A stretch of 64,000 nt of DNA from an uncultured Hungatella sp. (GTDB lineage: Bacteria; Bacillota; Clostridia; Lachnospirales; Lachnospiraceae), in contig CATLBR010000005.1 of NCBI GenBank assembly GCA_949879795.1, forward strand, positions 1 to 64,000, in the 5' to 3' direction. The notes beneath the pieces were generated by a model. The model saw only the letters and a list, made by a program, of their open reading frames with translations, ran no database searches and was not told the DNA's origin. Position 1 is the first letter of the stretch. Each line of letters begins with the position of its first letter. The translations under genes and the position numbers were made by a program. Below are positions 19,634-37,543 of this stretch, one piece after another.

Positions 19634-20566
19634 ATGATCATTTCCGCCAAATTTGACGATGTTTTCAAGGAGCTGTTTCGCAATCTGGTTATTCTCAGAC
19701 ATTTTATCGGGGATATTCTGGGAATTCCCCAGAGTAAAATCCGCAGCGTGCGCCTGAAGAACACGTTTCTGTGGAGACGGTACAGAAAAGAAAAACTGGG
19801 AATTCTGGATGTGGCGGTGGAACTCAATGATGACACCGACATCGACATCGAACTGCAGGTAAAGGTGTACGACAGCTGGGACAAACGGCAGCTGTTCTAT
19901 CTGGCAAAGCTGTTTACGGGGGAGCTTGCCGCCGGGCAGGATTATTCCATTCTGAAGAGATGCGTTGGTATCAGCATTCTGGATTTTAACCTTACGGAGA
20001 GGGAAAATTACCACACGGTATACCGTCTGAGGGACGAGGAGGGGAATGAACTGTCGGATATCCTGGAGCTACACATAGTGGAGCTGAAGAAGACGCTGAC
20101 GGGGAAGGGGGAGGTCGATGACTGGATACGTCTTTTTAACGCGAGAACAGAGGAGGATCTGAAGATGATAAAGACAAACAATCCCGGAATACTGGCCGCA
20201 ATCGGGGAGCTGCAGAGAATGAGTCTGAGAAATCCCCTGCGTTTGAGATATGAGGCCTATCTGAAAAGAGTGAGAGACGAGCGGGCGTGGAAGATCCATG
20301 TCTGGAAAACCGCAATGACAGAGGGCATGGCCAGGGGAGTTGCGGAGGGAAAGGCTCAGGGAGTAGCTCAGGCCATATTGGATTTGCTGAAGGAATGTGG
20401 AGAGGTTTCGGAGAAGCTGGAGACAAGAATTCTGTCAGAGAAAGATATGGATAAACTGCGCTGCTGGCTGAGTCTTGCGGCGAAAAGTCAGTCGGTGGAT
20501 GAATTTTGGGAGCAGATATCTGAATTGCCGCCCAATGCAAAAAACAGTACTAAAATGCACAAATAA
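19634..20566 (+). CDS. Rpn family recombination-promoting nuclease / PD-(D/E)XK transposase-like protein
   Basis: A 310-aa protein of the Rpn/YhgA-like (PDDEXK_2) family, which are DNA endonucleases linked to recA-independent recombination. It begins SAKFDDVFKELF, typical of the family. Asp at GILDV and IELQVK (residues about 55-78) form the D...(E/Q)xK nuclease core. A charged helical tail containing GMARGVAEGKAQGVAQ (about 238-255) matches the usual C-terminal repeats. GGAAAGGAG precedes the ATG. Such genes are abundant and mobile-like in Lachnospiraceae. Domestic function unknown. Confidence 0.85.
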   Translation: MIISAKFDDVFKELFRNLVILRHFIGDILGIPQSKIRSVRLKNTFLWRRYRKEKLGILDVAVELNDDTDIDIELQVKVYDSWDKRQLFYLAKLFTGELAAGQDYSILKRCVGISILDFNLTERENYHTVYRLRDEEGNELSDILELHIVELKKTLTGKGEVDDWIRLFNARTEEDLKMIKTNNPGILAAIGELQRMSLRNPLRLRYEAYLKRVRDERAWKIHVWKTAMTEGMARGVAEGKAQGVAQAILDLLKECGEVSEKLETRILSEKDMDKLRCWLSLAAKSQSVDEFWEQISELPPNAKNSTKMHK

Positions 20567-20567
20567 C

Positions 20568-20596
20568 TTGTAAAATTCTGAATTTTTTAGTAAAAT
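20568..20596 (+). promoter_or_regulatory. Promoter of the EF-G paralog gene
   Basis: TTGTAA (20568-20573), 17-base spacer, TAAAAT (20591-20596), 39 bases before the ATG at 20636. Confidence 0.55.
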
Positions 20597-20635
20597 GTTT
20601 TCATAGGCAAAAATTTATGTACAGGAGGAATGTTT

Positions 20636-22738
20636 ATGAACGTGTATGGAACAAAGCAAATCCGTAACGTCGTGTTACTAGGCCATGGCGGTGCAGGTAA
20701 GACGACCCTGGTGGAATCCATGGCGCTGGTGACCGGAGTTACCAAGAGAATGGGTAATGTAGTGGACGGTTCTACCATCAGTGATTATGATAAGGAAGAG
20801 ATCAAGAGACAGTTTTCCATCTCCACCTCCCTTGTACCGCTGGAGTTTCAGGGTGAAGAGGGGCCCATAAAAGTTAATTTATTGGATACCCCCGGTTATT
20901 TCGATTTTGTAGGCGAAGTAGAAGAGGCTGTCAGTGTGGCTGACGCGGCAGTGATCGTGGTGAACTGCAAGGCAGGAATTGAAGTGGGAACGGAGAAAGC
21001 GTGGGAACTCTGTGAGAAACTCAATCTTCCCCGCATCATTTTTGTGACCAATATGGATGATGATCATGCCAGTTTCCGTGAACTGATCCTGAAACTGGAG
21101 ACAAGATTTGGCAGAAAGATTGCTCCTTTCCATCTGCCGATCCGTGAGAATGAGAAATTTGTTGGTTTTGTCAACGTGGTAAAGATGGCAGGAAGAAGAT
21201 TTACCACCAACAGTGATTACGTAGAATGTGAGATTCCCGAGTATTCCAAGAAGAATCTGGAGATCTGCCGCGGAGCTTTGGTAGAAGCGGTGGCAGAGAC
21301 CAGTGAGGAGTATATGGAGCGGTATTTCTCCGGTGAAGAATTCACATATGAAGAGATTTCATCTGCTCTCAGGGAACATGTCATAGATGGAAGTATTGTT
21401 CCGGTTATGTTGGGTTCCGGTATCAACTGTCAGGGTGCAAGGATGCTTTTGCAGGGCATTGACAGGTATTTCCCGTCACCGGACCGTTTTGAATGTATCG
21501 GTGTGGATGTGTCCACAGGTGAGCGCTTTGTGGCCAAGTATAATGATGGCGTGTCTCTCTCCATGCGTGTGTTTAAGACGATTGTAGATCCTTTTATCGG
21601 CAAGTACTCCATGGTGAAGGTGTGTACAGGAACCCTGAAACCAGATTCTACCTCCTACAATGTCAATAAGGACACAGAGGAAAAGATCGGTAAAGTGTAC
21701 ACTCTCAGAGGCAAGGAACAGATGGAGTTAAAAGAACTCCACGCCGGCGATATCGGCGCAGTAGCCAAACTGAATGTAACCCAGACCGGTGACACACTGG
21801 CAGTGCGCACGGCCCCTATCGTATATCATAAACCTCAGATTTCCACACCATACACTTATATGCGCTACAGAACCAAGACAAAAGGTGATGATGACAAGGT
21901 AGCTACCGCTCTGGCAAAGCTGATGGAAGAGGATCAGACCTTAAAGGCTGTGGGCGACAAGGAGAACCGTCAGACTCTGCTGTATGGTATCGGTGACCAG
22001 CAGCTTGAGGTAGTGGTCAGCAAGCTGGCAAGCCGCTATAAGGTTGAGATCGAGCTGAGCAAGCCCAAGTTTGCGTTCCGCGAGACCATCCGTAAGAAAG
22101 TGGAAGCCCAGGGCAAGTATAAGAAGCAGACCGGCGGACACGGCCAGTACGGCGATGTGAAGATGTCCTTTGAGCCCTCCGGCGATCTGGAGACACCTTA
22201 TATGTTTGAAGAAAAAGTATTCGGCGGCGCCGTTCCGAGAAACTACTTCCCGGCGGTAGAGAAGGGCATCCAGGAGAGCGTTCTGAAAGGGCCTCTTGCC
22301 GCATATCCGGTTGTGGGTATCAAGGCAGTGCTTCTGGATGGTTCCTACCATCCGGTAGATTCTTCTGAGATGGCTTTCAAGATGGCGGCCAGCCTGGCGT
22401 TTAAGAAGGCGTTTATGGATGCCAGCCCGGTTCTTTTAGAGCCTATCGCTTCTATGAAGGTGACGGTGCCGGATAAGTTCACCGGCGATGTCATGGGAGA
22501 TCTGAACCGGAGAAGGGGACGTGTTCTGGGCATGAATTCCGATCACCATGGCAAACAGATCATAGAAGCGGATGTGCCTATGTCCGAGCTGTTTGGTTAC
22601 AACACAGATTTGCGCTCCATGACAGGCGGAATCGGTATCTATGAGTACGAGTTCAGCCGCTATGAGCAGGCTCCCGGCGATGTTCAGAAGAAAGAGGTTG
22701 AGGCGAGGGCCTCCCAGCTTGACGGGTCAGAGTCATAA
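20636..22738 (+). CDS. Elongation factor G paralog (EF-G2-like)
   Basis: A 700-aa ribosomal translocase-type GTPase with EF-G domain order (G, II, III, IV, V). The P-loop is GHGGAGKTT (16-24). The G3 motif reads DTPGYFDF, so Tyr88 replaces the catalytic His of DTPGH. The G4 position reads TNMD instead of NKxD. The same His-to-Tyr change is typical of EF-G2/FusA2 paralogs, some of which (in Bacteroides) support translocation without GTP hydrolysis. This is therefore probably not the housekeeping fusA. The ATG at 20636 is chosen because AGGAGG (20623-20628) is 7 bases upstream; the ATG at 20630 is too close. Confidence 0.9.
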   Translation: MNVYGTKQIRNVVLLGHGGAGKTTLVESMALVTGVTKRMGNVVDGSTISDYDKEEIKRQFSISTSLVPLEFQGEEGPIKVNLLDTPGYFDFVGEVEEAVSVADAAVIVVNCKAGIEVGTEKAWELCEKLNLPRIIFVTNMDDDHASFRELILKLETRFGRKIAPFHLPIRENEKFVGFVNVVKMAGRRFTTNSDYVECEIPEYSKKNLEICRGALVEAVAETSEEYMERYFSGEEFTYEEISSALREHVIDGSIVPVMLGSGINCQGARMLLQGIDRYFPSPDRFECIGVDVSTGERFVAKYNDGVSLSMRVFKTIVDPFIGKYSMVKVCTGTLKPDSTSYNVNKDTEEKIGKVYTLRGKEQMELKELHAGDIGAVAKLNVTQTGDTLAVRTAPIVYHKPQISTPYTYMRYRTKTKGDDDKVATALAKLMEEDQTLKAVGDKENRQTLLYGIGDQQLEVVVSKLASRYKVEIELSKPKFAFRETIRKKVEAQGKYKKQTGGHGQYGDVKMSFEPSGDLETPYMFEEKVFGGAVPRNYFPAVEKGIQESVLKGPLAAYPVVGIKAVLLDGSYHPVDSSEMAFKMAASLAFKKAFMDASPVLLEPIASMKVTVPDKFTGDVMGDLNRRRGRVLGMNSDHHGKQIIEADVPMSELFGYNTDLRSMTGGIGIYEYEFSRYEQAPGDVQKKEVEARASQLDGSES

Positions 22739-22776
22739 GGCCTGACAGAATCAGATAAAAGACATAGAATTGTAAA

Positions 22777-22813
22777 CAGAGAGGACGGCAGCGTTTGGCT
22801 GACGTCCTCTCTG
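22777..22813 (+). terminator. Terminator after the EF-G paralog
   Basis: CAGAGAGGACG (22777-22787) pairs with CGTCCTCTCTG (22803-22813). The following T-run is weak. It marks the left edge of the A+T-rich agr/TIR block. Confidence 0.65.
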
Positions 22814-22876
22814 CGTGGGTTTGGCTGTGTGCAGAGGTATATTCCTGTTATGGATGATAATAATGTACGAATAAGC

Positions 22877-22945
22877 ACCTATAGGTATTGACATTACAAC
22901 TGATGGTATCTTCAAAAAAATATGTGGAGAAGATACTATATAGGT
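22877..22945 (+). promoter_or_regulatory. Operator/promoter region of the XRE regulator
   Basis: A TTGACA box (22888-22893) is followed by a dyad, ATGGTATCTTC (22903-22913) against GAAGATACTAT (22929-22939), 10 of 11 matched with a 15-base spacer. A perfect palindrome ACCTATAGGT (22877-22886) lies before it, and a TATAGGT half-site (22939-22945) follows. Probable autoregulatory site of the XRE protein. The -10 box is not obvious. Confidence 0.5.
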
Positions 22946-22965
22946 GAAAGTGAAGGAATATGTAC

Positions 22966-23316
22966 ATGCACAATGAGAGCAAACCTAAAAAGGTACGAGA
23001 ACTGTATAAGAATATAGGCAGCCGCCTTTTGGCGAAGCGAAAAGAGTTGCGCTATACGCAGGAGAAGATGGCGGAACTCCTTGGAGTGAGTACAGGGTTT
23101 TACGGAATGCTTGAACGCGGCGAGAAAGCGCCAAGTATTGAAAAACTTGTCACGATCTATGAGAGATTGGGAACTGATATCACATATTTGCTGACCGGGG
23201 ATGGGAATGACAGGCGATACGAGGGGTACATTGACATGTGTCCCGAGGAAAAACGGTATGATTTTGAGCAGCTGATAAAGTACGCGCTTAATCTGGCTGA
23301 GATCAAAAAGCATTGA
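22966..23316 (+). CDS. XRE family helix-turn-helix regulator
   Basis: A 116-aa transcription factor. Residues about 15-75 form a Cro/CI-type helix-turn-helix (RYTQEKMAELLGVSTGFYGMLERG). The C-terminal 40 residues are charged and unassigned. The ATG at 22966 is preferred, since AAGGA at 22953-22957 is 8 bases away but only 2 bases from the ATG at 22960. It is the first gene of the A+T-rich block holding the agr genes and the TIR cassette, and it may control them or only itself. Confidence 0.85.
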   Translation: MHNESKPKKVRELYKNIGSRLLAKRKELRYTQEKMAELLGVSTGFYGMLERGEKAPSIEKLVTIYERLGTDITYLLTGDGNDRRYEGYIDMCPEEKRYDFEQLIKYALNLAEIKKH

Positions 23317-23448
23317 ATTATTTTGCGGCGCTGAGTAGCCTGAGGTTATTCATCGCCTGTTTTGTTATATAGCGCTGTTCAATGGAAGAGAATTCTGTCA
23401 ATATAGGCTCAGTCTCCTTTCCCGAAAATACTAATTGGGGGGAATTTG

Positions 23449-24171
23449 GTGTATAAGATTGCTTTGTGTGATGATAATGAGGAAAGTCTGAAGCTGATTA
23501 AAGATACGTTATTAAGTTATTGTGATTGCCATAATTTTGAGGTGAGGCCGCACAGTTTCAGTGACAGCGATGCTTTGTTGGAACTGATCGAGGAAAAGAA
23601 ATTTTTTGACGCATATATTTTGGATATTGATTTGCCGGTTCATTCAGGGCTGGATCTTGTCAGGCAGATCAGAGCCAGGACGGAGCTGCCTGTAATTATT
23701 CTGCTTACCGGATATGAACAGTATGCCATAGAAGCATGCGGGATGGGTATTTTTCGTTATGTTTTGAAGAATGATTGGGATAATAATTCCGAAAGAATTT
23801 TAGGAGAGTTGTTTGAGCGTTTAAGAAATATTCGTGATGAACGGGTTTACATTATAAGCAATCAGAGAAAACATATAATGTTCAGAATAAGAGATATAAT
23901 CTATATATACAAAAATCAGAAAAACACGGTGTTCATACTTTTTGGGCGTGAGGAGGAGACAGAGAGACAGACTCTATTAAAAGTGTACGAAAAGCTCAAA
24001 TATCCGGAGATGTTCTTTCTCGACCGCTGCTACATTATAAACATTCTGCATATTCAGCAAATTAAGAAAAATATTATAAAAATGGAAGGAGGACATGAAA
24101 TCATATCCAATGAGGAGAATATCTGCAAATTAAAAACCTATCTCAATAGCTATTGGAGGAAATATTTATGA
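23449..24171 (+). CDS. agrA: AgrA-type LytTR response regulator
   Basis: A 240-aa response regulator. The receiver domain (about 1-125) carries acidic pair Asp8/Asp9 and phosphoacceptor Asp59 in LDIDLP. The C-terminal LytTR DNA-binding domain spans about 135-240 (HIMFRIRDIIYIYKNQK). The start is GTG 23449 (or TTG 23446), just after GGGGGG at 23437-23442. Its stop overlaps the kinase start (ATGA), so the pair is coupled. It is the presumed binder of the GGACA direct repeats at 25436 and 26300. Confidence 0.88.
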   Translation: MYKIALCDDNEESLKLIKDTLLSYCDCHNFEVRPHSFSDSDALLELIEEKKFFDAYILDIDLPVHSGLDLVRQIRARTELPVIILLTGYEQYAIEACGMGIFRYVLKNDWDNNSERILGELFERLRNIRDERVYIISNQRKHIMFRIRDIIYIYKNQKNTVFILFGREEETERQTLLKVYEKLKYPEMFFLDRCYIINILHIQQIKKNIIKMEGGHEIISNEENICKLKTYLNSYWRKYL

Positions 24172-25430
24172 TGAGCTTTGCCTTTGAAGGAATCGAGTTG
24201 GGGGCAACGCTGCTGGAGGTATATTTGGGGTTTAGAATCAATGCTGTTCTGCTGACTGATAAGATGAGAAAGCCGCATGTGTTTTTGTGGGCCACATTTC
24301 TTTTGACTATGGTTATTCAGATTATGAATCAATACCGTCTGTTCTCTGTATTTACATCTGTGGCTGCTGTGGCGGGATGTACAATTGGAACAATTTTGAT
24401 ATGTCAGTCGGATTTTTTGGGGTCACTGATTTCTTCTGTATTGTATGTGATTTTGATTCATATCATTGACTTTTTATCGCTTTCTGTCTGGAGTCTGGTA
24501 TTTACAGACAGCCAATTTGGCATTCGAATCATTTCAGGATATTCCATGTACCGTGTGATACATATTGTTTTTTGCAAAGTAGTATTGCTTGCGGTATGGT
24601 ATTTCTTTTTTCGCAGGCTGACAGGAAGAGCGGCAGTTCCGGTAAAAAAGATGGCGATGGCAGCGGCTGGCGCTGTTGGGCTGGTGTGGTATTTGGGAAG
24701 AGCGACGTTCGAAGATTCTGAGGCAGTTTTGACGGTGGTGTGGGGTATATTGCTTTTTGTCATATTGATCGGTATCTATTTTTTCAGAGAATACGGCAGG
24801 TGGAAAGAATCTCAGATGGAATATGAACTTGCTGTACAGAAAAATGAATGGATTGCAAAAAGCTACCGGCAGAATCAGCTTTTTTATCACAACCTCAATA
24901 ATCACTATGTGATAATAAAAGGTTTCCTTCAGAAGAAGGAATATGAAAAAGCAGAAGAGTATATGGAGCAAATAGGCGCAACGAAACAGGTGAGCCTGAG
25001 AAGCTGGGTTGGAGATGATACTTTAGATATTCTGCTCAATCAGAAATTGGAGGCAGCACAGAATGAATCCATAAATATGGAGATTCTGCCGGACAAGATT
25101 CAGCTGAGATTGACTGGAGAAGAGCTGACAAGTCTTTTTGGAAATGCTCTTGACAATGCCATTGAAGCATGCAGGAGAGTGGAGAGGGAGAAACGATGGA
25201 TACGGTTTCAGATAAAACGGGTAAACGATATGTCATTTTTCAAGATATCCAACGGAATACCAAATGATTTTGATGACCAGGAAGGTGAAGGCAGGACTAC
25301 CAAGGAACATAAATCCAGACATGGTTTGGGTATTTTAAGTATGAAACTTATTGCTGAGAAATATGGGGGAGTCGTGGAAACCAAAGTGGATGACGGAAAA
25401 TTTGTCTTGATGATCTCTTTCTTTGAATAA
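24168..25430 (+). CDS. agrC: AgrC-type sensor histidine kinase
   Basis: A 420-aa membrane kinase expected to sense the AgrD-derived cyclic peptide. Six or so transmembrane helices fill residues 1-210. The dimerisation motif FYHNLNNHY supplies His241, the likely phosphorylated residue, and a GHKL ATPase domain follows with NALDNAIEA (326-334) and GLGILSMKLI. The ATG at 24168 is set by GGAGG at 24155-24159 and overlaps the agrA stop. The order A-C-B-D differs from the staphylococcal B-D-C-A. Confidence 0.88.
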   Translation: MMSFAFEGIELGATLLEVYLGFRINAVLLTDKMRKPHVFLWATFLLTMVIQIMNQYRLFSVFTSVAAVAGCTIGTILICQSDFLGSLISSVLYVILIHIIDFLSLSVWSLVFTDSQFGIRIISGYSMYRVIHIVFCKVVLLAVWYFFFRRLTGRAAVPVKKMAMAAAGAVGLVWYLGRATFEDSEAVLTVVWGILLFVILIGIYFFREYGRWKESQMEYELAVQKNEWIAKSYRQNQLFYHNLNNHYVIIKGFLQKKEYEKAEEYMEQIGATKQVSLRSWVGDDTLDILLNQKLEAAQNESINMEILPDKIQLRLTGEELTSLFGNALDNAIEACRRVEREKRWIRFQIKRVNDMSFFKISNGIPNDFDDQEGEGRTTKEHKSRHGLGILSMKLIAEKYGGVVETKVDDGKFVLMISFFE

Positions 25431-25435
25431 TTTTC

Positions 25436-25496
25436 AAGGACAAAAGTATGGTAGTTGAAGGACAAAGTTTAAAAGCACCGAAAAAAGTAGTAAAAT
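25436..25496 (+). promoter_or_regulatory. LytTR-type direct repeat and promoter of agrBD
   Basis: AAGGACAAAAGT (25436) and AAGGACAAAGTT (25458) form a direct repeat with exactly 22-bp period. The -10 box TAAAAT (25491-25496) begins 31 bases after the second GGACA. Two-turn direct repeats over the -35 region are how AgrA/LytTR regulators bind. An almost identical element occurs at 26300-26362. Confidence 0.65.
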
Positions 25497-25524
25497 AGAA
25501 AATAAAATTTACGAAAGAGGAATT

Positions 25525-26112
25525 ATGATACTTCGTATATTAGCGGAAAGGTGTACAGATACTCTGATAAAGCACGATGCAATTCAAGCAGCACAAAGGC
25601 CCGTATTCCGCTATGGGTTTGAGTTGTTTTGGTCTACTTTTTTGTGTATAGTCAGTATATGTGTGCTTGGGGGTGTTGGCGGGTATATGCCTTTGGCGAT
25701 AACATTTATTTTGTATTTTATGCCTATTCGCACGGCTGTGGGAGGTTATCACGCCAAATCCTATGGGAGATGCTTTTTACTGACCAACATAATCAGTTTG
25801 GTCTGTGTGACAAGTGCGGGTATATTGTCCAATTGGGGGAAAGCGGGGATATTTGTCTGGACTTTATATGGGCTGGCTGTGTGGTACATATGGATTAACG
25901 CACCTGTTAAATCAAGAAAAAATTTTCAAAGAGAGGAAACTTTACTAAGAAGGAAGAGGATCGGGCGTAAGATAGTGTGTATGGAAAGTTTATCGATCGC
26001 TCTGTTATATATGATGAACTATAAAAAGATATCATATATGGCAATAGTTACCTCGTGGGCTGTTGCAGTTATGATGTTTATATGCAGAAAGGAGGAAAAA
26101 GGGAATGATTAA
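25525..26112 (+). CDS. agrB: AgrB-type accessory gene regulator processing protease
   Basis: A 195-aa membrane cysteine endopeptidase that trims the AgrD precursor and forms its (thio)lactone. GGYHAKSYGRC supplies catalytic His76 and Cys83 with the usual spacing. Four to six transmembrane helices surround it (about 35-70, 85-105, 110-130, 150-190). GAAAGAGG precedes the ATG. agrD overlaps its 3' end by 8 bases. The GGACA repeat promoter upstream suggests AgrA feedback on agrBD. Confidence 0.92.
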   Translation: MILRILAERCTDTLIKHDAIQAAQRPVFRYGFELFWSTFLCIVSICVLGGVGGYMPLAITFILYFMPIRTAVGGYHAKSYGRCFLLTNIISLVCVTSAGILSNWGKAGIFVWTLYGLAVWYIWINAPVKSRKNFQREETLLRRKRIGRKIVCMESLSIALLYMMNYKKISYMAIVTSWAVAVMMFICRKEEKGND

Positions 26113-26230
26113 TATCTGGGATGTGATAGCAGACTTTATTCAGAAGTTTGCGGAGCTGGGAGCTGGTTTTCAGTCAATCGGATCAAGTTATGAACCTGAG
26201 ATTCCAGAAGAATTAAAAGAGAATATCTGA
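26105..26230 (+). CDS. agrD: AgrD-like cyclic peptide precursor without cysteine
   Basis: A 41-aa peptide too short for ordinary gene calling. It has an amphipathic N-terminal helix (INIWDVIADFIQKFAEL), a small core (GAGFQSIGSSY) and an acidic tail with EIPEELKE, which parallels the EVPKELT tail of staphylococcal AgrD. AAAGGAGG at 26088-26095 lies 9 bases before the ATG. No Cys is present. Counting back from the conserved Pro, Ser23 falls at the position of the thiolactone Cys, so a serine lactone is predicted. Its overlap with agrB by 8 bases supports co-translation. Confidence 0.82.
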   Translation: MINIWDVIADFIQKFAELGAGFQSIGSSYEPEIPEELKENI

Positions 26231-26237
26231 TCGATGG

Positions 26238-26280
26238 ACAAAGGCACTGGTTTGTGAGAAACATAAACCAGTGCCTTTGT
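26238..26280 (+). terminator. Strong terminator after agrD
   Basis: A 16-bp perfect stem: 26238-26253 pairs with 26265-26280 (core AAGGCACTGG / CCAGTGCCTT) around an 11-base loop. It closes the agr operon and separates it from the TIR cassette promoter. Confidence 0.85.
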
Positions 26281-26299
26281 CGTATGATGTAGAAAATTG

Positions 26300-26362
26300 G
26301 GGGACAAAGTGTTGGGGGTTAGAGGACAGATGAGAGGCTTTAGGGGGAGAATGTAGTATAAT
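26300..26362 (+). promoter_or_regulatory. LytTR-type direct repeat and promoter of the TIR cassette
   Basis: GGGGACAAAGTG (GGACA at 26302) and GAGGACAGATG (GGACA at 26324) repeat with the same 22-bp period as the agrBD element. The -10 box TATAAT (26357-26362) begins 33 bases after the second GGACA, within a shared GTAGTAxAAT context. This indicates that AgrA also drives the TIR cassette. The remaining 250 bases before the TIR start are an A+T-rich leader with no convincing gene. Confidence 0.65.
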
Positions 26363-26609
26363 TAGAAATAAATATAATATTCAGGCTTAGTATATCTCTA
26401 TCTGATGAATCAACTTTGATATACATTGACAGTAAGATTGGAGAGAGATATTTCTGAAATACACTTCATAGGCCAAGAATGAAAAAATGGGTAATTTCAG
26501 AAAGCCGATATCCTTCGAAGCATATAAAGGGTTCCGGCTTTTTTATCGCTCAACTGACGAAATATGAAAACTGTATAAGAAGGATATTACAACAAGCAGG
26601 AGGGATAAA

Positions 26610-27206
26610 ATGCAAAAATTACAATTTCCGCTTAAAACTTTTATTTCTTACAGCCATCATGATAAAATCCTGAAAGAATGTTTGATAAAGCATTTGAACT
26701 CTTTGATACGTCAGAAGTATATTGAATTGTGGCATGATGATATGATATTGCCGGGAGCCAGTATTGATGACGATATATTGCAGGCAATGAGAGAATGTGA
26801 TCTGGCATTGCTGTTGATTAGCGCAGATTACTTGGCGTCTGATTACTGCTACTCTACAGAGATGGAAACATTTATGAGTCTTCGAAATACCGGAAAAATC
26901 GTAGTACCAATATTGTTGAGGCAGGTTGATCTGAAAGGTACTCCATTTGACGGGTTGAAGTCTCTACCGGAAGACAGAAAAGCAGTGAATAGTTTTTCTG
27001 ATCGGGATGAGGCAATGATATCTATTGCAACTGGGATCAGAAAGATAGTTGAAAGTGTTTATAAAGAATCGGTTCCTGGAATGAAAGAGACAATAAAAAG
27101 AAATATAGCAGGACAGGATATCTCATTGCCGTCAACACATATTAATTATGGATTTGAATTTTATGGAAATCAGATAAATGGCGGTTCCTTTGAAATTAAA
27201 AAATAG
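26610..27206 (+). CDS. TIR domain protein, first gene of agr-linked cassette
   Basis: A 198-aa protein. Residues about 8-140 are a TIR domain: KTFISYSHHDK opens it, WHDDMILPGASI is the BB-loop region, and SADYLASDYCYSTEME carries Glu84 at the usual catalytic NADase position. The last 50 residues are unassigned and end in a Gly/Asn-rich segment. AGGAGGG lies just before the ATG. It begins a four-gene A+T-rich operon behind a promoter that shares its direct-repeat element with agrBD. It could be an effector or a scaffold; NAD cleavage is inference from the Glu. Confidence 0.85.
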   Translation: MQKLQFPLKTFISYSHHDKILKECLIKHLNSLIRQKYIELWHDDMILPGASIDDDILQAMRECDLALLLISADYLASDYCYSTEMETFMSLRNTGKIVVPILLRQVDLKGTPFDGLKSLPEDRKAVNSFSDRDEAMISIATGIRKIVESVYKESVPGMKETIKRNIAGQDISLPSTHINYGFEFYGNQINGGSFEIKK

Positions 27207-27222
27207 TCAGGAGGAATCTGCA

Positions 27223-28827
27223 ATGGATGTAGAAGACAGAAAAGAGATCTCTGAAGAGGATATGAAACAAAATGCAGAGAACGTTTCAGAAAAGACGGAA
27301 AACCAGAAAGATCTGATTGAGAGTTATAAAGATTTACTGGAGAAGGAGAATCGTGAGAAAGAGGAAACGGGAACTTCAACTGTGGATCAGTTGCGGGAAG
27401 TTGTAGAGAACTGGGGGATGCAGTTTTCAAGATCAACATTTCGGGATTCTGTTTTTGTTATCAATCCAAATGTAAAAGGAACAGACAAGAAGGAATATAA
27501 AAAGAATATTCTTGGAACTATGGATGATCAGGAAATATTGGAGTGGTGCTCAGAACACTATAAGGATTACATATTTGCAGTTTTTCTGTCAGTTTGTATT
27601 CTGGATTGCCAGGCTTATGAGGATATTCTGCAGATGGGGAATGAGCTGCATAATATTTTGGACAAAAAGAAGGATGAAGAATCTGAGAATGTGGATTTTT
27701 GGAATTATAAATCCAGAATACAAGAGACTTTGGGTGTGATAGAATACAGAGATAAGGTTTATGTGAGGGGCACAGAACAGGAAACGGATTTTTTGAGACT
27801 ACCTCTGCATGAGCAGTCAAGTTACTATATACGATTGCTTGTTAAAGAATTTGCCGGTTTGAAATTGATGCTTGGTCCTTACCTGGCATCAAAGATATTT
27901 GAGACCTGTAAAAGTAAAAAGAATTATCTGATAGTGGGAGGCTGTACGGAAGCTCTGGCAAATATTGGAAATCAGGATGTGGTTTTTTTTAATTCAAGGA
28001 TATTGCCTCTATTTTTGGGTAAAAGAACGGATGAAGCTGATTATTGTCTTGCAATGCTTTTAAACCAGATGTATCTGTTGAATCAAAACAGGGACTACGT
28101 AATTACTTGTGCAGAACAATGGGGGCGGATAAAAAACAATCCCCACTATCCGTTGACTGCACTTTATCTGTGTGGAATGGTAAAAAATCAGGAAGGCTTC
28201 GTATGCGGAGTATGGAATTCACTTTTAAGTATTTTAATAAAAGAAATTATAGATGGACTAATATTTGCAGATAATTCCTATTATGTTAATCTGCTTGAAT
28301 TTTTTAGAAGCGGAAACAGAGAGCTTAGCTATTATAAAGGTGTGATTCATGCTTTCTATAACAAAATCAAAAAGATGGAAAAAGAGAATAAAAGGAAAGA
28401 GTGTGATATTCTGGGTACATTGTTTCTCTTGCTTGTTATGAATGATTATGGAGACTGTGATTTGTCAGGTCTGACGAAAAGAAGAAAAGATATGCTGTTG
28501 GTTGAGATAATGGAACAAATGGATGAAAAAACTGGACATGAACTTGTCTTTTTGTGGAAACAGGTTTTGAAACATCGAAAGCATCCGGGGGAAGGATGGA
28601 ATATTTTGCGCAGATATCTGGACAAATATGAATCATGGAGCGAGAAAGATTTGAGAAAATTAGCTTTCTTTTTTTACTGGATTAATCGGGAACTGGGTGA
28701 TGATCAGGCGTATTCATTTTTGAACAGAAGTATGTTAAAAGGTGGAAACAGATTACTGATTGCAGAAAAAATATATGAAAAAATAATAGGAGAGAATTCA
28801 CATGGAAGACAAAATTATAGAGATTAG
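27223..28827 (+). CDS. Uncharacterised 534-aa helical protein of the TIR cassette
   Basis: I do not recognise a family. The first 65 residues are highly charged (Glu/Lys), probably disordered or coiled. The rest reads as a long run of amphipathic helices suggesting a helical-repeat solenoid, with a hydrophobic GLIFADNSYYVNLLEFF region near 355. No catalytic motif, signal peptide or membrane helix stands out. The ATG at 27223 is set by AGGAGG upstream. Its end overlaps the next gene by 26 bases, so the products are probably made together. Sensor or adaptor role in the TIR system is a guess. Confidence 0.7.
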   Translation: MDVEDRKEISEEDMKQNAENVSEKTENQKDLIESYKDLLEKENREKEETGTSTVDQLREVVENWGMQFSRSTFRDSVFVINPNVKGTDKKEYKKNILGTMDDQEILEWCSEHYKDYIFAVFLSVCILDCQAYEDILQMGNELHNILDKKKDEESENVDFWNYKSRIQETLGVIEYRDKVYVRGTEQETDFLRLPLHEQSSYYIRLLVKEFAGLKLMLGPYLASKIFETCKSKKNYLIVGGCTEALANIGNQDVVFFNSRILPLFLGKRTDEADYCLAMLLNQMYLLNQNRDYVITCAEQWGRIKNNPHYPLTALYLCGMVKNQEGFVCGVWNSLLSILIKEIIDGLIFADNSYYVNLLEFFRSGNRELSYYKGVIHAFYNKIKKMEKENKRKECDILGTLFLLLVMNDYGDCDLSGLTKRRKDMLLVEIMEQMDEKTGHELVFLWKQVLKHRKHPGEGWNILRRYLDKYESWSEKDLRKLAFFFYWINRELGDDQAYSFLNRSMLKGGNRLLIAEKIYEKIIGENSHGRQNYRD

Positions 28828-29752
28828 AGAGCTGGAGAGAAGATTGACAGGATTTCAGGAGATACCAAGAGGAAATCTGGAAACCGCGTATGTGTTTTTT
28901 CAGTCAAAAGACAATTCTAAATATGTGATTACAACGGAAAAAAGAAAGATCATGTCAGCAGAATTAAGGGTGGGAAAATATGACAGGATCATGGAGATAC
29001 AGAGAGGCCGATTTGACAAAAAAATTTATAAAGAGATTTCATGTCTCGAGCCTGGTCATTTTTTTACAGTCGAATTGGATGTAAGATATTATATTTCGGA
29101 TCCGGAATATATTTATCTGAATCGAACCTATTCTGTATCAGAAGAACTGGATAGAGTGCTGTCTGGTATAGAAGGCGATCTCAGCAATGGATACAGCTTT
29201 ACAAAACAGGCAGAGTTGTCAAAAGATATGAGAATGCTGATTGACACAAAACTCAGAATGTTATCTTATCTTGAGTATTCCCTTGGAATTCAAATAGATG
29301 TGGATGAGAGCGCAAGGAATTTGATTGAGAGCCAAAGAAGACATGAGATAACTATAGACCAAATAGATAAAGAAGCTATCGAAGAACAACTCAGAGCCAG
29401 AAATGAGGAAGACTTAAAGCAGATGAAGATGGACAGCCTGGGGCGGTTTATGAGTCAGTATGGTGTAAATGCAGGCAATCTGCTCAGCCATGTGGATGGT
29501 GAGATGTCCGGAAGAGAATTGTCTGAAATTTTAAAGGCAGATAAGAAAGAGCAAACAGAGATGAGTTTTGAGATGCTTATGAAATTATATAAAGAAGGTA
29601 TTATTAACGATATAAACATGGGGAATGTATTGGAGAAAATTTTGCCGGGAATTGGACAGGCTGTATCTTCTGAACGGATTGAAGCAAGGAAAGACAATTT
29701 GAACGAAGAAGAGCATGGGGAGAACGAGTCATTCCAATGGAAAAAATCTTGA
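28802..29752 (+). CDS. SPFH/band-7-like protein of the TIR cassette
   Basis: A 316-aa soluble protein. Residues about 75-195 resemble an SPFH (stomatin/prohibitin) domain: FFTVELDVRYYISDPEYI is the typical strand pattern, followed by a helical stretch and LGIQIDVDE. A charged coiled-coil (about 183-215) follows, then a globular tail with LPGIGQ. No N-terminal membrane helix is present, so the membrane link may come from the next gene product. AGGAGA precedes the ATG, which overlaps the 534-aa gene by 26 bases. The assignment rests on pattern only. Confidence 0.55.
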   Translation: MEDKIIEIRELERRLTGFQEIPRGNLETAYVFFQSKDNSKYVITTEKRKIMSAELRVGKYDRIMEIQRGRFDKKIYKEISCLEPGHFFTVELDVRYYISDPEYIYLNRTYSVSEELDRVLSGIEGDLSNGYSFTKQAELSKDMRMLIDTKLRMLSYLEYSLGIQIDVDESARNLIESQRRHEITIDQIDKEAIEEQLRARNEEDLKQMKMDSLGRFMSQYGVNAGNLLSHVDGEMSGRELSEILKADKKEQTEMSFEMLMKLYKEGIINDINMGNVLEKILPGIGQAVSSERIEARKDNLNEEEHGENESFQWKKS

Positions 29753-29774
29753 TGAAGCAGGGTGGTGAAGAACG

Positions 29775-30605
29775 ATGTTACAGGACATGATACACGTATA
29801 TTTTGCGATGCTTCAATATTATATCCTGCGTTGTCCTTATTCGCTTATGATTTTTTTATTTGTAACAGAGGTTTTTTTTCCTGTAGGAATGGTATTAAGG
29901 GTTATGCCATGGTGTATTGGATGGCTTATTCGGAATATACAATGGTGTCTGTATCAGATATCCAGGCTGTTTCCGGTATTACAGGATATATGTAGTAAAA
30001 TAGATTCTGTGTTTAATTCTTGGGGCCTTCGGCTTGAGGGATCGGGGAACATGGATGAAAGCGGCAGGCAGAAAAGGAAAAAAGGAACATCTGTCATTGG
30101 GATTTATGTGTTAATAATAGTTGTAGCATATACATTTTTAATTGTACCATACTATCTGGAATCTAGCTTGACAGGAAATTCACAAAGAGTTTGTGCGAAT
30201 ATCAATCAGTTGGTTGAAGAGAGAGTTACATATGTCAAGGACTATGTAAATCGGTACTACACTCCTAAAATATCTGAAGAAACAGTATCTGAGGAAACGG
30301 TATCAGAGGAAACAGAAGAAGTAACAGAAACAGTGGAAGAGAAAGTGGAGGAGGAACGAATTGTTCTCCATCTTGGAAGCAAGGGAAGAGACGGATCCAA
30401 TTTGCGCAGCTCACCAGAAAAAAGATCAGATAATATTGTAAGTACAGTGTATGGAGATATTGAATTATTCTTTGAATATGAGATTCAGAAAACGGGAGGA
30501 ATTACATGGGTTAAAGTTAGCACAGATGAGATATCTGAGGTGTGGATCAGCAGGAATCTGCTTGACGAGGAAGAGGCAGAGACATTTTTGTATTTTGAAG
30601 AATAA
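29775..30605 (+). CDS. Membrane protein with C-terminal bacterial SH3-like domain
   Basis: A 276-aa protein. Hydrophobic N-terminal segments (about 16-60) and a clear transmembrane helix at about 105-127 are followed by a SEETVSEET-type acidic repeat linker (165-195). A bacterial SH3-like domain (about 198-265) reads GSNLRSSP...VSTVYGD...WVKV...VWISRNLL. Topology would place the SH3 domain outside, where such domains often bind cell-wall peptides. Last gene of the TIR cassette, 22 bases after the SPFH-like gene. Confidence 0.7.
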   Translation: MLQDMIHVYFAMLQYYILRCPYSLMIFLFVTEVFFPVGMVLRVMPWCIGWLIRNIQWCLYQISRLFPVLQDICSKIDSVFNSWGLRLEGSGNMDESGRQKRKKGTSVIGIYVLIIVVAYTFLIVPYYLESSLTGNSQRVCANINQLVEERVTYVKDYVNRYYTPKISEETVSEETVSEETEEVTETVEEKVEEERIVLHLGSKGRDGSNLRSSPEKRSDNIVSTVYGDIELFFEYEIQKTGGITWVKVSTDEISEVWISRNLLDEEEAETFLYFEE

Positions 30606-30907
30606 TCTACGGCCATATGGGCATTTTTTATGAAGTGATGGGTAATATTCATGATATCGTACAATTATTAATTTGAATGAGCCAAATCTGAGAATTAGAG
30701 TTAATTCATGACGTTCTATAGTAACGCTTTTGAAATTACCTCCTATTTATGATCGTACAAATGGTACAGGTGAGACATGCCGGCCATAGACATAGTGACG
30801 AAAAGGAGTTTTGAAGGTCTATCTTGACGAAGCCTCCATTTTAGAGTAATCTGATATAGACTTGAAAAGGCGGATATGCCGTGCCGTTTGGGCAGGGAGG
30901 AGGCGTC
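30606..30907 (+). promoter_or_regulatory. Intergenic region with vanZ promoter
   Basis: No gene seen. TTGACG (30824-30829), 17-base spacer, TAATCT (30847-30852) forms the likely promoter for the VanZ gene. A short GCC/GGC hairpin with T6 near 30612-30630 may be a weak terminator for the TIR cassette. An ATCGTACAA sequence occurs twice (about 30656 and 30751) with no clear role. The right edge of the A+T-rich block lies here. Confidence 0.55.
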
Positions 30908-31525
30908 ATGTACAGGACACTATTTCACACATACTGGCCCCGGTGGAGCGCTTTTGAAAGAAACGTTTTGCTTTTCATCTTGGCGGCTGTCATCGCTCTG
31001 GTGATCTGTTTCTATATAATGGGGTGGACGAAAAAGCGGTGTGCCGCCTTTTTTGCGCTGGCCATATACCTGTGCTTTGTATTCGGCTCCACAGTGTTTG
31101 CCAGAGCGCCAAGAAAAAGTTACAGCTACGAATTGGAATTATTCTGGTCCTACCGCAAGGTGATTGCCAACCCGGAAAGTCCGCTGAAAAGGGAGATATT
31201 TTTAAATTACCTGCTGCTGGCGCCCTACGGGTTTCTGGCGCCGGTGGCGGCAGGAGCGGGGAGAGCGGAGAGAAAAGGGGCGGGGAGACACAGAGGGAGA
31301 AAGGGAATCTGCCTCATGGTGATCGTCACCGGATGTCTGATTTCCTGCATGATTGAGGGGCTCCAGCTGTTTTTGAAGCGTGGCCTGTTTGAGCTGGACG
31401 ACATTTTAAATAATACCCTGGGGGTGGCAGGCGGGTATGTTATGTACTGTGCTATATCGTTTTTTTGCGATCTCCGGAGGGGGCAGAAAAAAGCCGAATT
31501 TAATCCTGACGGAAAGGCACCATAA
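30908..31525 (+). CDS. VanZ family membrane protein
   Basis: A 205-aa, four- to five-helix membrane protein of the VanZ family (teicoplanin-resistance-associated in enterococci; usual function unclear). GLFELDDILNNTLGVAGGY near the end is the family signature, and the NYLLLAPYGFLAP segment is also typical. The ATG at 30908 follows GGGAGGAGG directly; a start at 30881 has no such site. Confidence 0.85.
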   Translation: MYRTLFHTYWPRWSAFERNVLLFILAAVIALVICFYIMGWTKKRCAAFFALAIYLCFVFGSTVFARAPRKSYSYELELFWSYRKVIANPESPLKREIFLNYLLLAPYGFLAPVAAGAGRAERKGAGRHRGRKGICLMVIVTGCLISCMIEGLQLFLKRGLFELDDILNNTLGVAGGYVMYCAISFFCDLRRGQKKAEFNPDGKAP

Positions 31526-31555
31526 AAAAGGTGCCATAAAAACCTTAAAAAACAG

Positions 31556-31584
31556 TTGCAATGTTGCACAAATCATTTTATAAT
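31556..31584 (+). promoter_or_regulatory. Promoter of the peptide ABC transporter operon
   Basis: TTGCAA (31556-31561), 17-base spacer, TATAAT (31579-31584). It is followed within about 25 bases by the terminator-like hairpin at 31608-31636. Confidence 0.65.
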
Positions 31585-31607
31585 AGAGGACGGAAAAGTT
31601 GCAAGGG

Positions 31608-31636
31608 AGCATTAGAATGTTTCTAATGCTTTTTTT
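31608..31636 (+). terminator. Leader terminator (attenuator) before the peptide-binding protein gene
   Basis: AGCATTAGAA (31608-31617) pairs with TTCTAATGCT (31621-31630), then six or more T. It lies between the promoter and the substrate-binding protein gene, so transcripts would end after about 45 bases unless readthrough or antitermination occurs. Confidence 0.75.
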
Positions 31637-31687
31637 TGTACATCACGGTGTACAGACATTAAATTCTAAGAAACAGGAGGCAGGATT

Positions 31688-33406
31688 ATGAAAAAATACT
31701 TATCTCTGCTGATGGCGGGTGTTCTTGCCGTCAGCGTGCTGGGAGGCTGCAGCTCAGCCTTTGACGACGGGTCTTCATCTTCCGCGGCGGCCGGGGAGAG
31801 CGGCGGTGCCCAGACTCAGGCGGGGACGGCCGCTGGGGGAGAGACCAGCCAGGCGGCGGGCGGCAGCAATGGCGGCGCAGCCACAAAAGCCGCAGGAAGC
31901 AATGTGATCCACATTCCGGAACATGACGAGTTCCGTACGCTGGACTGCCAGAAAGATACGGAGTTCTATGTGGTTCCCCTGAATATCTACGACCGCTTAG
32001 TGGAGTGCGAGGTGGTGGACGGGGTGGCTACCATCGTGCCCAGCCTTGCCGAGAGCTGGGATATCAGTGACGACGGTCTTGTGTACACTTTCCATCTTCG
32101 CAGCGACGTGACCTTCCACAACGGGAATCAGTTTACGGCGGACGACGTGGTATATACGGTGGAGAGGATGATGAATCCTGCTACGGCGGCTGTGAATACG
32201 GACTTTTTCAGCATGATCAAGGGTGCCAACGATATGCTTGAGGGGCAGGCGGACGGAGTGGAGGGCGTGAAGGCCCTGGACGACTTTACGGTGGAGATCA
32301 CCCTGGAGGTTCCCTTTGCGCCGTTCCTGGCCAACCTGGCCACACCTTCCTGCTCTATTTACAACAGGGCGGCCACGGAGGCGGCAGGAGATCAGTTCGG
32401 CATCGACCCGGCGGTGACTGTGGGAACCGGTCCGTTTAAGGCGGCCGACTGGGTGCTCAATGACAGGGTCACTCTGGTGCGCTACGACGACTATTTTAAG
32501 GGGCCGGCCAAGATCGACGGTGTGGAGTTGATTCAGGTTCCCGACGAGAATACACAGAAGCTGATGTATGAGAACGGGGAACTGGATATTGTGGATCTCA
32601 GCAGTTCTACGTCTCAGCTGGCATATTTCATGGGTAACGACGCCTACAAGGATAATCTGGTCACAGGGCCGGAGGCAGGCAACTATTTCTACGCGTTTAA
32701 CCAGGATATGGCTCCCACAGACGATGTGAGGGTCCGTAAGGCCATTTCCATGGCCATTGATCGCCAGACAATTCTGGATCAGATGTACAGCGGGGCTGGC
32801 CACGTGGTCAACTCCATGCTCCCTGACGGTGTTCTGGGTTCCTACGAGGCGGAGGAGATTCCCTACGATCCCGACGGCGCCAAGGCTCTCCTGGCAGAGG
32901 CGGGCTACGGGGACGGCTGTGACCTGGAACTCTATCAGAAGACCAATGATCCGGACGCTCTGGCTATCAACCAGGTAGTGCAGTCCATGCTGAGCCAGGT
33001 GGGAATCAATGTCACCATCAAGCAGATGGACGAGGCCGCGTACCTGTCAGAGAGGAAAGAGGGAAAGCTGGGCATGACGAGAGCCGTGTGGTGGGCTGAT
33101 TTCAACGATCCGGACAATTTTCTCTATACCTTCTTTACCGAGAAAAATACAAAGGTTCGCTCCCTCAACCACAAGAATACCGATGTGTACCAGTGGCTGG
33201 AGGACGGCAGAAAGATGGTAGATGAAGACGAGCGCATGGAACTGTACAAGAAGATCGACATGACAATGGTACAGGAGGAGGCGGCAGTGTTCCCCCTGTT
33301 CCAGATGGATCATGTGGTTGTGGTTCAGGACTGGGTGAAGGGCTTCCAGATCCCGTGGAACGGCTGGACCGACACTTCCTATTATAACGTTTCCATTGAG
33401 AGATAA
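31688..33406 (+). CDS. Peptide ABC transporter substrate-binding lipoprotein (SBP_bac_5)
   Basis: A 572-aa extracytoplasmic solute receptor for di- or oligopeptides. Signal peptide with lipobox LGGC and lipidated Cys21; Gly/Ala/Ser linker to about 70. The family 5 fold then begins at DEFRTLDCQKDTEFYV. YTFHLRSDVTFHNG is the typical family motif. AGGAGG precedes the ATG. It heads a five-gene operon (receptor, two permeases, two ATPases). A terminator between it and the first permease suggests excess production of the receptor. Confidence 0.93.
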   Translation: MKKYLSLLMAGVLAVSVLGGCSSAFDDGSSSSAAAGESGGAQTQAGTAAGGETSQAAGGSNGGAATKAAGSNVIHIPEHDEFRTLDCQKDTEFYVVPLNIYDRLVECEVVDGVATIVPSLAESWDISDDGLVYTFHLRSDVTFHNGNQFTADDVVYTVERMMNPATAAVNTDFFSMIKGANDMLEGQADGVEGVKALDDFTVEITLEVPFAPFLANLATPSCSIYNRAATEAAGDQFGIDPAVTVGTGPFKAADWVLNDRVTLVRYDDYFKGPAKIDGVELIQVPDENTQKLMYENGELDIVDLSSSTSQLAYFMGNDAYKDNLVTGPEAGNYFYAFNQDMAPTDDVRVRKAISMAIDRQTILDQMYSGAGHVVNSMLPDGVLGSYEAEEIPYDPDGAKALLAEAGYGDGCDLELYQKTNDPDALAINQVVQSMLSQVGINVTIKQMDEAAYLSERKEGKLGMTRAVWWADFNDPDNFLYTFFTEKNTKVRSLNHKNTDVYQWLEDGRKMVDEDERMELYKKIDMTMVQEEAAVFPLFQMDHVVVVQDWVKGFQIPWNGWTDTSYYNVSIER

Positions 33407-33416
33407 AATGATCACA

Positions 33417-33446
33417 GGCGGCGAGGTAATCTAAGCCGCCTTTTTT
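33417..33446 (+). terminator. Intra-operon terminator after the binding-protein gene
   Basis: GGCGGC (33417-33422) pairs with GCCGCC (33435-33440), followed by TTTTTT (33441-33446). Partial readthrough would give more receptor than permease. Confidence 0.75.
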
Positions 33447-33532
33447 AGCAGGCAGCAGGTATGGGCCGCGTATGCCCTTTTGGCGGCTGCCCCATAGCTT
33501 CCAAATGTATATGTCTAAGGAGGAGAGCGCGG

Positions 33533-34456
33533 ATGTTAAAATACATAGCCAAACGGGTATTAGTGACCATTCCGGTGCTGATCGGTGTTGTATTTCTGAT
33601 TTTTGTCATGCTCAGTGTGGTTCCGGGAGACCCATTGACGGTTATGATGGGAGAGAAAATAAAAGTGGATGTTATTGAGCGCCTCAGTGAGACCATGCAT
33701 CTCAATGACCCGTGGTATATCCGGTTTGTGTGGTATCTGCGGGATGTTGTGCTTCACGGGGATTTCGGAATGTCCTACAAGTTGATGAGAAGCGTGTCGT
33801 CCCTTATCGCCAACGCGTTTCCCAAGACGCTGATGCTGGCTGTCACCGCGGCGGTTTTGTCCTGGATCGTGGGGATCCCGGCAGGCATCGTCTCGGCGGT
33901 TAGAAAAAATTCTCTGGTGGACCATCTTTTTATGGGCTTTGCCCTGTGCGGTGTGTCCATACCTGCATTCTCCGTGGGGATGCTGCTGCAGAACATATTT
34001 AACGGCATTCTCCCTGTGTCGGGTTTTGCCTCCCCCATACATCTCATCCTTCCCGCTATGGTGCTGGGGTGGAACGCGGCGGGAACCATCGCCAGACTCA
34101 CCAGGTCAAGCCTTCTGGAGGTGCTTGAGGACGACTATATCAGGACTGCCCGCGCCAAGGGCCTTGCCCCGCTGCCGGTGATCCTGGGGCACGCCCTGAA
34201 GAATTCTCTGCTTCCTGTCATCACCATGATGGCCATTCAGATTTCCAGCCTGCTGTCAGGGGCTGTGATCACGGAGACCCTGTTCAGCATTCCGGGTATC
34301 GGGCGCTTGACAGTGGACGCCATCAACGGCAGAGATATGCCTCTTCTCCAGGGGACGGTTATTTTCACCACCACGGTGATCATTGCAGGCAACCTGGTAG
34401 CGGATATTCTGTACAGCGTGGTTGACCCGAGAATACGTGTGGAGGGAGGAAAATAA
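33533..34456 (+). CDS. Peptide ABC transporter permease (DppB/OppB-type)
   Basis: A 307-aa inner-membrane permease with six predicted helices. RTARAKGL...HALKNSLLPV is the EAA loop that docks the ATPases. The N-terminal MLKYIAKRVLVTIPVL is typical of DppB. The ATG at 33533 is set by AAGGAGG; an earlier in-frame ATG at 33461 lacks a site and lies next to the terminator. Confidence 0.93.
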   Translation: MLKYIAKRVLVTIPVLIGVVFLIFVMLSVVPGDPLTVMMGEKIKVDVIERLSETMHLNDPWYIRFVWYLRDVVLHGDFGMSYKLMRSVSSLIANAFPKTLMLAVTAAVLSWIVGIPAGIVSAVRKNSLVDHLFMGFALCGVSIPAFSVGMLLQNIFNGILPVSGFASPIHLILPAMVLGWNAAGTIARLTRSSLLEVLEDDYIRTARAKGLAPLPVILGHALKNSLLPVITMMAIQISSLLSGAVITETLFSIPGIGRLTVDAINGRDMPLLQGTVIFTTTVIIAGNLVADILYSVVDPRIRVEGGK

Positions 34457-34457
34457 T

Positions 34458-35432: not shown

Positions 35433-35462
35433 CGCGGCCGCAGAGCAGAAAGGAATATGACG

Positions 35463-37447: not shown

Positions 37448-37472
37448 CGGCTGTCGCGGAGAAAAGAAAGGG

Positions 37473-37501
37473 TTGTGTATTTTCTGAAAATTTAGTATAA
37501 T
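37473..37501 (+). promoter_or_regulatory. Promoter of the PRTase-like gene
   Basis: TTGTGT (37473-37478), 17-base spacer, TATAAT (37496-37501). The spacer begins with the palindrome ATTTTC-T-GAAAAT (37479-37491). Confidence 0.6.
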
Positions 37502-37543
37502 ACAACCATCGAAACACCAATAAATTAAGGGGGTTTTTCCTGT

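Follow-up and report, generated by a model that had tools for sequence, protein, structure and literature searches.

An agr quorum-sensing module joined to a four-gene TIR cassette in an uncultured Hungatella, with a candidate AgrA operator at the cassette promoter

The first 64,000 nucleotides of contig CATLBR010000005.1 from an uncultured Hungatella sp. (hereafter, the window) contain a block of nine genes, all on the + strand. They encode an XRE-family regulator, a complete agr module (agrA, agrC, agrB and agrD) and a cassette consisting of a TIR-domain protein, an orphan protein of 534 amino acids (aa), an SPFH protein and, last, an SH3-like membrane protein. We read the block as a horizontally acquired unit in which the agr module has been joined to a mobile TIR cassette, forming an AgrA-controlled system of the abortive-infection type; we put forward this interpretation tentatively, at a little short of an even chance. 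The genes, two copies of a promoter repeat and their kinship with repeats at AgrA relatives, the recurrence of the cassette in other genomes and the absence of the block from the relatives read are direct results of the computation. An earlier note, made from the letters of this stretch alone, had listed the nine genes in this order on one strand, and all nine were confirmed there at the given coordinates.

The same note linked the two halves of the block through adjacency and “shared promoter elements”. The link exceeds adjacency, because the TIR promoter bears a repeat that is over-represented beside the AgrA-type genes of relatives. The agrB and TIR promoters each contain two GGACA boxes at an offset of 22 base pairs (bp). 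At the agrB promoter, the candidate AgrA operator (GGACA-N17-GGACA; 25438..25464, + strand) is followed by a -10 element, TAAAAT (25491-25496), 31 bp past the second box; upstream of the TIR cassette, the candidate operator (26302..26328, + strand) is followed by TATAAT (26357-26362), 33 bp past the second box. The window holds two exact GGACA-N17-GGACA sequences, where 0.2 are expected, and both lie in gaps of this block; two or more were seen in 2 of 100 shuffles. The shared elements were therefore borne out. Staphylococcal AgrA reportedly binds a pair of direct repeats located before P2 and P3 (PMC4227749). The arrangement expected of AgrA (LytTR) targets, a pair of direct repeats separated by roughly two turns of the helix and preceding the promoter, was found at both promoters of the block.

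We compared 29 AgrA-relative loci (L059-L087, not counting the window's own locus, L058), only a small fraction of the AgrA matches, with 30 control loci, two of which (L010, L035) come from this genome. A loose form of the repeat (offset 21 or 22 bp) was listed in 14 of the 29 loci, in 10 of them with a -10 element, and in none of the controls. When the offset alone was fixed and no word was preset, GGACA ranked first of 512 5-mer classes (14 loci versus 0 controls); the runner-up classes were A-rich words with an excess over control of 10. The 14 of 29 against 0 of 30, together with the top 5-mer rank, argue that the repeat genuinely belongs to this AgrA group. Of the AgrA relatives outside this genome, the eight best among the matches listed were taken with their flanks, and in seven the repeat (offset 21 or 22) lay beside an agr-type gene: directly past agrC in L088-L091 and L094, upstream of agrB in L092 and upstream of agrA in L095. 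The sole repeat of L093 is far from any agr-type gene. None of these eight flanked loci gave a TIR, orphan, SPFH or SH3 match. GGACA-N16/17-GGACA may also serve to seek further AgrA-controlled genes in this family. Repeats with no agrB match by tblastn occur at L089 1095, L090 9059 and L091 6543. Two of these are in related genomes and precede a frame judged by eye to be NUDIX-like; the third, in G313, has a 959-aa frame 267 bp downstream.

For the TIR-promoter copy, 20,000 dinucleotide shuffles of the agrD-TIR gap produced the repeat in 26 cases and the repeat plus a -10 element in none, with an allowed -10 range of 31-33 bp that was chosen after the sites had been seen. We also built a matrix from 13 of the 14 relatives' sites, excluding the window; L060 and L061 belong to one genus and have an identical repeat, and L074 and L077, whose sites lie on the side opposite to the usual one, were also excluded in one re-run. 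The agrB site ranked first in every version. Scoring the boxes plus a -10 element at 31-33 bp placed the TIR site second among approximately 431,000 positions (23.3; next 18.1), and it was again second when the -10 element was allowed at 29-35 bp (next 21.6). With the boxes only, it ranked 9th of 431,102 positions, 5th of the 127,932 in the window and first in its own gap. Because its rank varies with the -10 distance, we regard the TIR-promoter repeat as a likely, not a proven, AgrA site, predicted from sequence.

The agr module is complete (order A-C-B-D), and its proteins show the family matches and key residues expected of them. AgrA (23446..24171, + strand) is a response regulator with a LytTR domain (Response_reg 4e-14, LytTR 3e-8) and has D60. 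AgrC (24168..25430, + strand) is a membrane sensor kinase (GHKL ATPase 5e-23) whose H241 is presumably the phospho-acceptor; the residues around this candidate read HNLNN, and a relative in G307 has HDLKN. AgrB (25525..26112, + strand), the peptide-processing membrane protease (PF04647 3e-31), retains H76 and C83, which we take to be its catalytic His and Cys. The 41-aa AgrD pro-peptide (26105..26230, + strand) is encoded by a gene overlapping agrB and scores exactly at the TIGR04223 cut-off (19.0 bits). One Ser, a Gly two residues on and a P..P.EL tail are invariant across three AgrDs, and since this Ser stands in place of Cys, the product is predicted to be a serine lactone peptide. The module therefore resembles known agr (AgrBDCA) systems in its four proteins, their key residues and the paired direct repeats that precede the agrB promoter, but differs in gene order, in the Ser of AgrD, in the GGACA boxes and in the second repeat copy that precedes a TIR cassette.

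Within the cassette, the TIR protein (26610..27206, + strand; 198 aa) is ThsB1-like (TIR_2 1e-12; PADLOC ThsB1, PDLC00420, 4e-38). Its nearest solved chain is Cat1 (3e-7), a CRISPR-associated filament-forming TIR; plant TIRs, SNC1 and RPP1 among them, come next, and Toll-like receptors rank lower. Its E84 occupies the TIR glutamate position, aligned with a glutamate of Cat1, and is presumably catalytic. The orphan (27223..28827, + strand; 534 aa) has its best start at 27223, past a Shine-Dalgarno-like stretch. It gave no Pfam, NCBIfam or PADLOC match above cut-off, and no NTPase family was found in the orphans. The orphan model comprises an N-terminal region and then a helical body, and a fold search with this poor model returned weak helical-repeat matches, none at E<=0.001.

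The third protein (28802..29752, + strand; 316 aa) was assigned to the SPFH (stomatin/HflK-like) family by profile and fold likeness together. It had no direct Pfam band-7 match, a sequence search of the PDB gave no SPFH match, and no hydrophobic stretch was found in it. Its profile reaches two proteins of other genomes (E 3e-5 and 6e-4) that are band-7 by Pfam (1e-32 and 5e-24); two of the four matches in that search were ordinary band-7 genes. By Foldseek against the PDB, 18 of 18 matches at E<=0.001 were SPFH by title, obtained with a poor model (mean pLDDT 51) and at TM-scores near 0.3. The protein is thus like HflK/HflC and stomatin in fold and profile, and unlike them in the undetected hydrophobic stretch and in its place within a TIR cassette. 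The last gene (29775..30605, + strand; 276 aa) encodes a membrane protein with a weak SH3b-like C-terminus (PF08239, E 0.08), and a distant relative in another genome, G207, scores 26.3 for the SH3-like domain (cut-off 27). The last three cassette proteins had no PADLOC model match.

The cassette recurs in other genomes. In Lachnospiraceae bacterium MGB1 (L004), the same four genes occur in the same order at 70, 67, 64 and 49% identity, with genes for an ECF sigma factor and a beta-propeller protein upstream and, further off, an integrase gene and tRNA-Cys. L004 gave no agr match in its 17.6 kb and has no GGACA repeat before the TIR gene. G390 belongs to a different genus of the family. There a TIR gene, a distantly related orphan (22%, E 7e-17) and, truncated by the contig end, an SPFH-like frame adjoin an impB/mucB-type polymerase gene, with no agr match in 20 kb and no such repeat before the TIR gene. 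The SPFH-like protein of G390 shares 52% identity with its counterpart in G207, whose gene lies at the start of a contig; the gene after it encodes a membrane SH3-like protein akin to that of the window (hhalign 95.5%, E 1e-8). This G207 pair adjoins a frame (L100 2127-3797) matching RVT_1 and retron RT-Toprim I-C models over aa 1-243.

The density-gated TIR operon of the earlier note, which was to fall if the cassette proved to be found as often without agr, has to be divided accordingly. The agr module lies beside one of the three cassettes whose upstream side is visible, L004 and G390 have the cassette with neither agr nor the repeat as a neighbour, and eight AgrA relatives lack the cassette. 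L004 and G390 thereby rule out agr as an obligate part, and the cassette stands as an independent unit. What stands of the link is the paired repeat of the AgrA group in the TIR promoter. Two further observations on these copies may be recorded. The phage-type integrase of L004 (1572-2867; PF00589 7e-13) adjoins tRNA-Cys (3057-3129) about 4 kb before the cassette, a possible island boundary; and the G207 frame L100 2127-3797 continues with a nucleotidyl transferase and a ManC-type domain, through truncation, fusion or an assembly join.

The TIR gene might suggest Thoeris, as the protein matches PADLOC ThsB1 at 4e-38 and that of L004 does so at 4e-41. However, a scan of the ten proteins encoded between 22960 and 31525 found no ThsA, so membership was rejected; the SPFH, helical orphan and SH3-like partners also set the cassette apart, as does the G390 TIR, which is not ThsB-like. 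The orphan is rare in the genomes searched, occurring in 1 of 26 genus genomes and 1 of 392 in the order (itself in each case); its profile found 2 of 397 in the family, itself and G390, the latter a match by construction as that protein is part of the profile. A 42-residue match with three stops in G061 was not counted. Searches of phages, viral contigs and plasmids did not support a phage or plasmid origin: the orphan was not found in phages or viral contigs, the G390 orphan was not found in plasmids, the SPFH protein was found in neither viral contigs nor plasmids, and the TIR was absent from phages and matched 43 plasmid records, all below 60% identity. The genome-contig scan returned no relative of the SPFH protein, though L004, found there via its orphan, encodes one; absence from these scans is therefore weak evidence.

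The earlier note had also proposed looking for the same flanks in relatives lacking the block. Full-length copies of EF-G, the gene to its left, are 87-96% identical across the genus, and in all seven genus relatives read, the 3.4-4.5 kb past EF-G is occupied by different genes, with one set common to four relatives, a second common to two and a third in the remaining one; no block protein matched these seven loci at >=40% identity. AgrB matches in the genus are distant, at 25-32% identity in 2 other genomes of 26. A peptide ABC-transport operon and its neighbour (31688-38221), right of EF-G in the window, lie to the left (upstream) of it in G001 and G005 (L139, L140), which is a local rearrangement around the block. 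EF-G directly adjoins aromatic-pathway genes in G001, G005 and G002; in the window, a PD-(D/E)XK family transposase gene (19634-20566; PF12784, 2e-39) stands between the DAHP synthase gene and EF-G. The absence in relatives, the distant AgrB matches and these shifts make both halves look acquired, in a rearranged neighbourhood.

The TIR C-terminus and the orphan N-terminus may share a short motif. The last 18-20 residues of the TIR protein (motif at aa 179-196) resemble aa 63-80 of the orphan. Within the first 130 aa of the orphan, shuffles scored as well in 267 of 5000 cases for the window, 26 of 5000 for L004 and 15 of 5000 for G390; over the whole orphan, the latter two gave 128 and 30 of 5000. 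Among 308 control proteins, a set that excludes orphans, unrelated N-termini reached the motif score in 0 (L004), 2 (G390) and 9 (window). The motif places match in all three loci, both G390 partners carrying another motif, and the low-confidence orphan model has two short strands (65-68 and 78-81) in an otherwise helical protein. Bacterial amyloid signalling motifs, as described in two reports (PMC7889193; PMC8086366), pair an effector C-terminus with the N-terminus of a neighbour, and TIR domains are named among their carriers. Our loci may be like these BASS amyloid signalosomes in having a candidate short motif at the effector C-terminus and the N-terminus of the adjacent product, a comparison of layout that covers three examples, with the motif weak in the window. 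They differ in that the orphan partner shows no NTPase domain, where an NLR partner would combine an NTPase with repeats.

Two hairpins lie between agrD and the TIR gene. A 20-bp hairpin past agrD (26237..26281, + strand; -35.2 kcal/mol) has no clear T run and probably ends agrBD. The TIR leader contains a terminator-like hairpin with a T6 run (26499..26544, + strand; -16.8 kcal/mol), and none of 200 shuffles was as stable. A small frame of 64 aa (26479-26673) begins in the leader, crosses the terminator-like hairpin and overlaps the TIR start. The leader is a possible attenuator, opened perhaps by translation of this frame.

These elements could work together as follows. AgrB would cut AgrD, releasing a cyclic peptide; at high density AgrC would phosphorylate AgrA, which would bind the paired GGACA boxes at the agrB promoter, for autoinduction, and at the TIR promoter, so that the cassette would be built up only in a crowd. 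The helical orphan may be a sensor or scaffold that the SPFH ring protein and the SH3-like membrane protein hold at the membrane. Members of the SPFH family form membrane assemblies (HflK/C and stomatin, the titles of the top fold matches), which suggests a membrane-anchored sensor platform. Upon a trigger, the orphan would recruit the TIR protein through the short beta-arch motif that both would carry, the orphan in its N-terminal region and the TIR protein at its C-terminal end; once clustered, the TIR domains might consume NAD+ or make a nucleotide signal. We infer a role in defence from the TIR domain, the rarity and patchy presence of the cassette and the retron-type RT frame beside its G207 copy. 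The simplest reading is that AgrA captured the cassette in this lineage. A fuller proposal, in which a private agr has AgrA directly controlling a new four-gene TIR signalosome (TIR as effector, the helical orphan as sensor, SPFH as membrane ring and the SH3-like protein as anchor) assembled by a homotypic beta-arch motif, with the hairpin leader as a second and possibly infection-sensitive gate, seems to us rather doubtful in its entirety.

Several results weigh against an acquired, AgrA-controlled defence block. The 33 bp to the TIR -10 element falls outside the 31-32 bp of several relatives, and with the -10 element held to 31-32 bp the TIR site drops outside the top six; 33 bp was admitted after the TIR site had been seen, the -10 matrix was hand-set, and the training sites were chosen by GGACA words seen in the window. 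A plain alignment of the two promoters was reached by 54 of 2000 mononucleotide shuffles, and three other window tiles align better; the whole-promoter alignment is weak as evidence of a link. The bare repeat is not rare genome-wide and is uninformative there, with 13 exact matches versus 22 for a backwards control. In favour of the reading, though, the block's two copies differ from the other eleven, which lie inside frames of >=117 aa; the frames around these two measure 86 and 57 aa. No repeat was found in 15 of the 29 AgrA-relative loci. Only two of the eight flanked loci (L088 and L092) gave agrB by tblastn, so many of these relatives are AgrA/AgrC pairs not known as agr. Beside the cassette, agr is absent in two of the three cases with a visible upstream side (the four genes of L004 and the three visible in G390). 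The terminator-like hairpin stands between the candidate operator and the TIR gene, and operator-driven TIR expression is for this reason not certain. As for the proteins, the G390 TIR has no ThsB match and only marginal kinship to the window TIR (E 0.015), and the SPFH likeness in G390 is uncertain (blastp 1e-9 without composition correction, hhalign probability 4%). The window orphan has no relative among solved structures at E<=1, and its model is poor (pLDDT 46.6). The window copy shows only a weak motif, as 1356 of 5000 whole-orphan shuffles scored as well, and the G390 TIR tail fits marginally better elsewhere in the window orphan (24 vs 23).

Three other explanations accommodate some of these results. 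If two unrelated acquisitions had come to lie side by side, the second repeat would be a chance occurrence, and it would be natural that each half exists without the other and that the TIR site comes 9th when only the boxes are scored and leaves the top six with the -10 element at 31-32 bp. Chance fits poorly with the gap shuffles (the repeat in 26 of 20,000, the repeat plus -10 in none) and with both exact window repeats falling in the agrB and TIR promoter gaps, and we think such a coincidence quite improbable. The cassette could alternatively be an agr-timed device for self-lysis or kin competition, triggered by density and not by infection. Known agr loci often control secreted and lytic outputs, and the cassette partners are of membrane type; but the cassette stands without a neighbouring agr in L004 and G390, and the TIR domain and retron-type neighbour point to conflict systems, making this explanation decidedly unlikely.

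The third alternative concerns what the operator drives. It might produce an agr-output RNA of about 175 nucleotides, ending at 26499-26544, with the TIR cassette a neighbour expressed only by leak-through or from a weak promoter of its own. The P3 promoter of S. aureus makes RNAIII, an agr output, and the T6 hairpin, at -16.8 kcal/mol and matched by none of 200 shuffles, would provide the end. The AgrA repeats upstream of two promoters, P2 and P3, in S. aureus would offer a parallel as well (PMC4227749). Yet no Rfam family reached its gathering score in 20000-33000, the promoter scan found no + strand site between the hairpin and the TIR gene, and translation of 26479-26673 could open the hairpin. 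We consider an RNAIII-like product unlikely.

Returning to the reading of an AgrA-controlled abortive-infection-type block, quorum control of abortive infection is already known: the CBASS operon of V. cholerae is under quorum control and raised at high cell density (PMC10653837). That precedent is similar in placing an abortive-infection system under quorum control but differs in its use of a chromosomal quorum regulator, where here a complete private agr lies beside the cassette. In S. aureus, quorum sensing is described as inhibiting type III-A CRISPR (PMC12462963). Titles and opening lines of abstracts in the open-access papers searched, subscription papers being outside this scope, contained no agr-TIR-cassette locus of this kind. 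A defence-like cassette seems to have been placed under a locally encoded density sensor, which bears on the open question of why lethal defences are not always expressed. The L004 copy, with neither agr nor the repeat as a neighbour, provides a natural control, and we offer the TIR-orphan-SPFH-SH3 cassette for study.

The block is bordered by EF-G (20630-22738) on the left and a VanZ-like gene (30881-31525) on the right. As left bound, the earlier note had named the EF-G terminator; a strong inverted repeat at 22780-22812 (identified by eye) lends this loose support, but it has no T run. The right edge, placed at VanZ, did not hold up as a conserved boundary, as VanZ is no close conserved neighbour and its best genus match outside this genome is 37% identical. 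The XRE-family HTH regulator gene (22960..23316, + strand; 118 aa; HTH_3 1e-11) has an intermediate G+C content of 0.457, and its membership of the unit is uncertain. An A+T richness unlike either flank had also been claimed, and the measured G+C contents agree: 0.381 for the block (0.397 for the agr half and 0.369 for the TIR half) versus 0.498 for EF-G, 0.515 for VanZ and 0.510 for the window. The lowest-G+C stretch of 7.6 kb in the window begins at about 23200.

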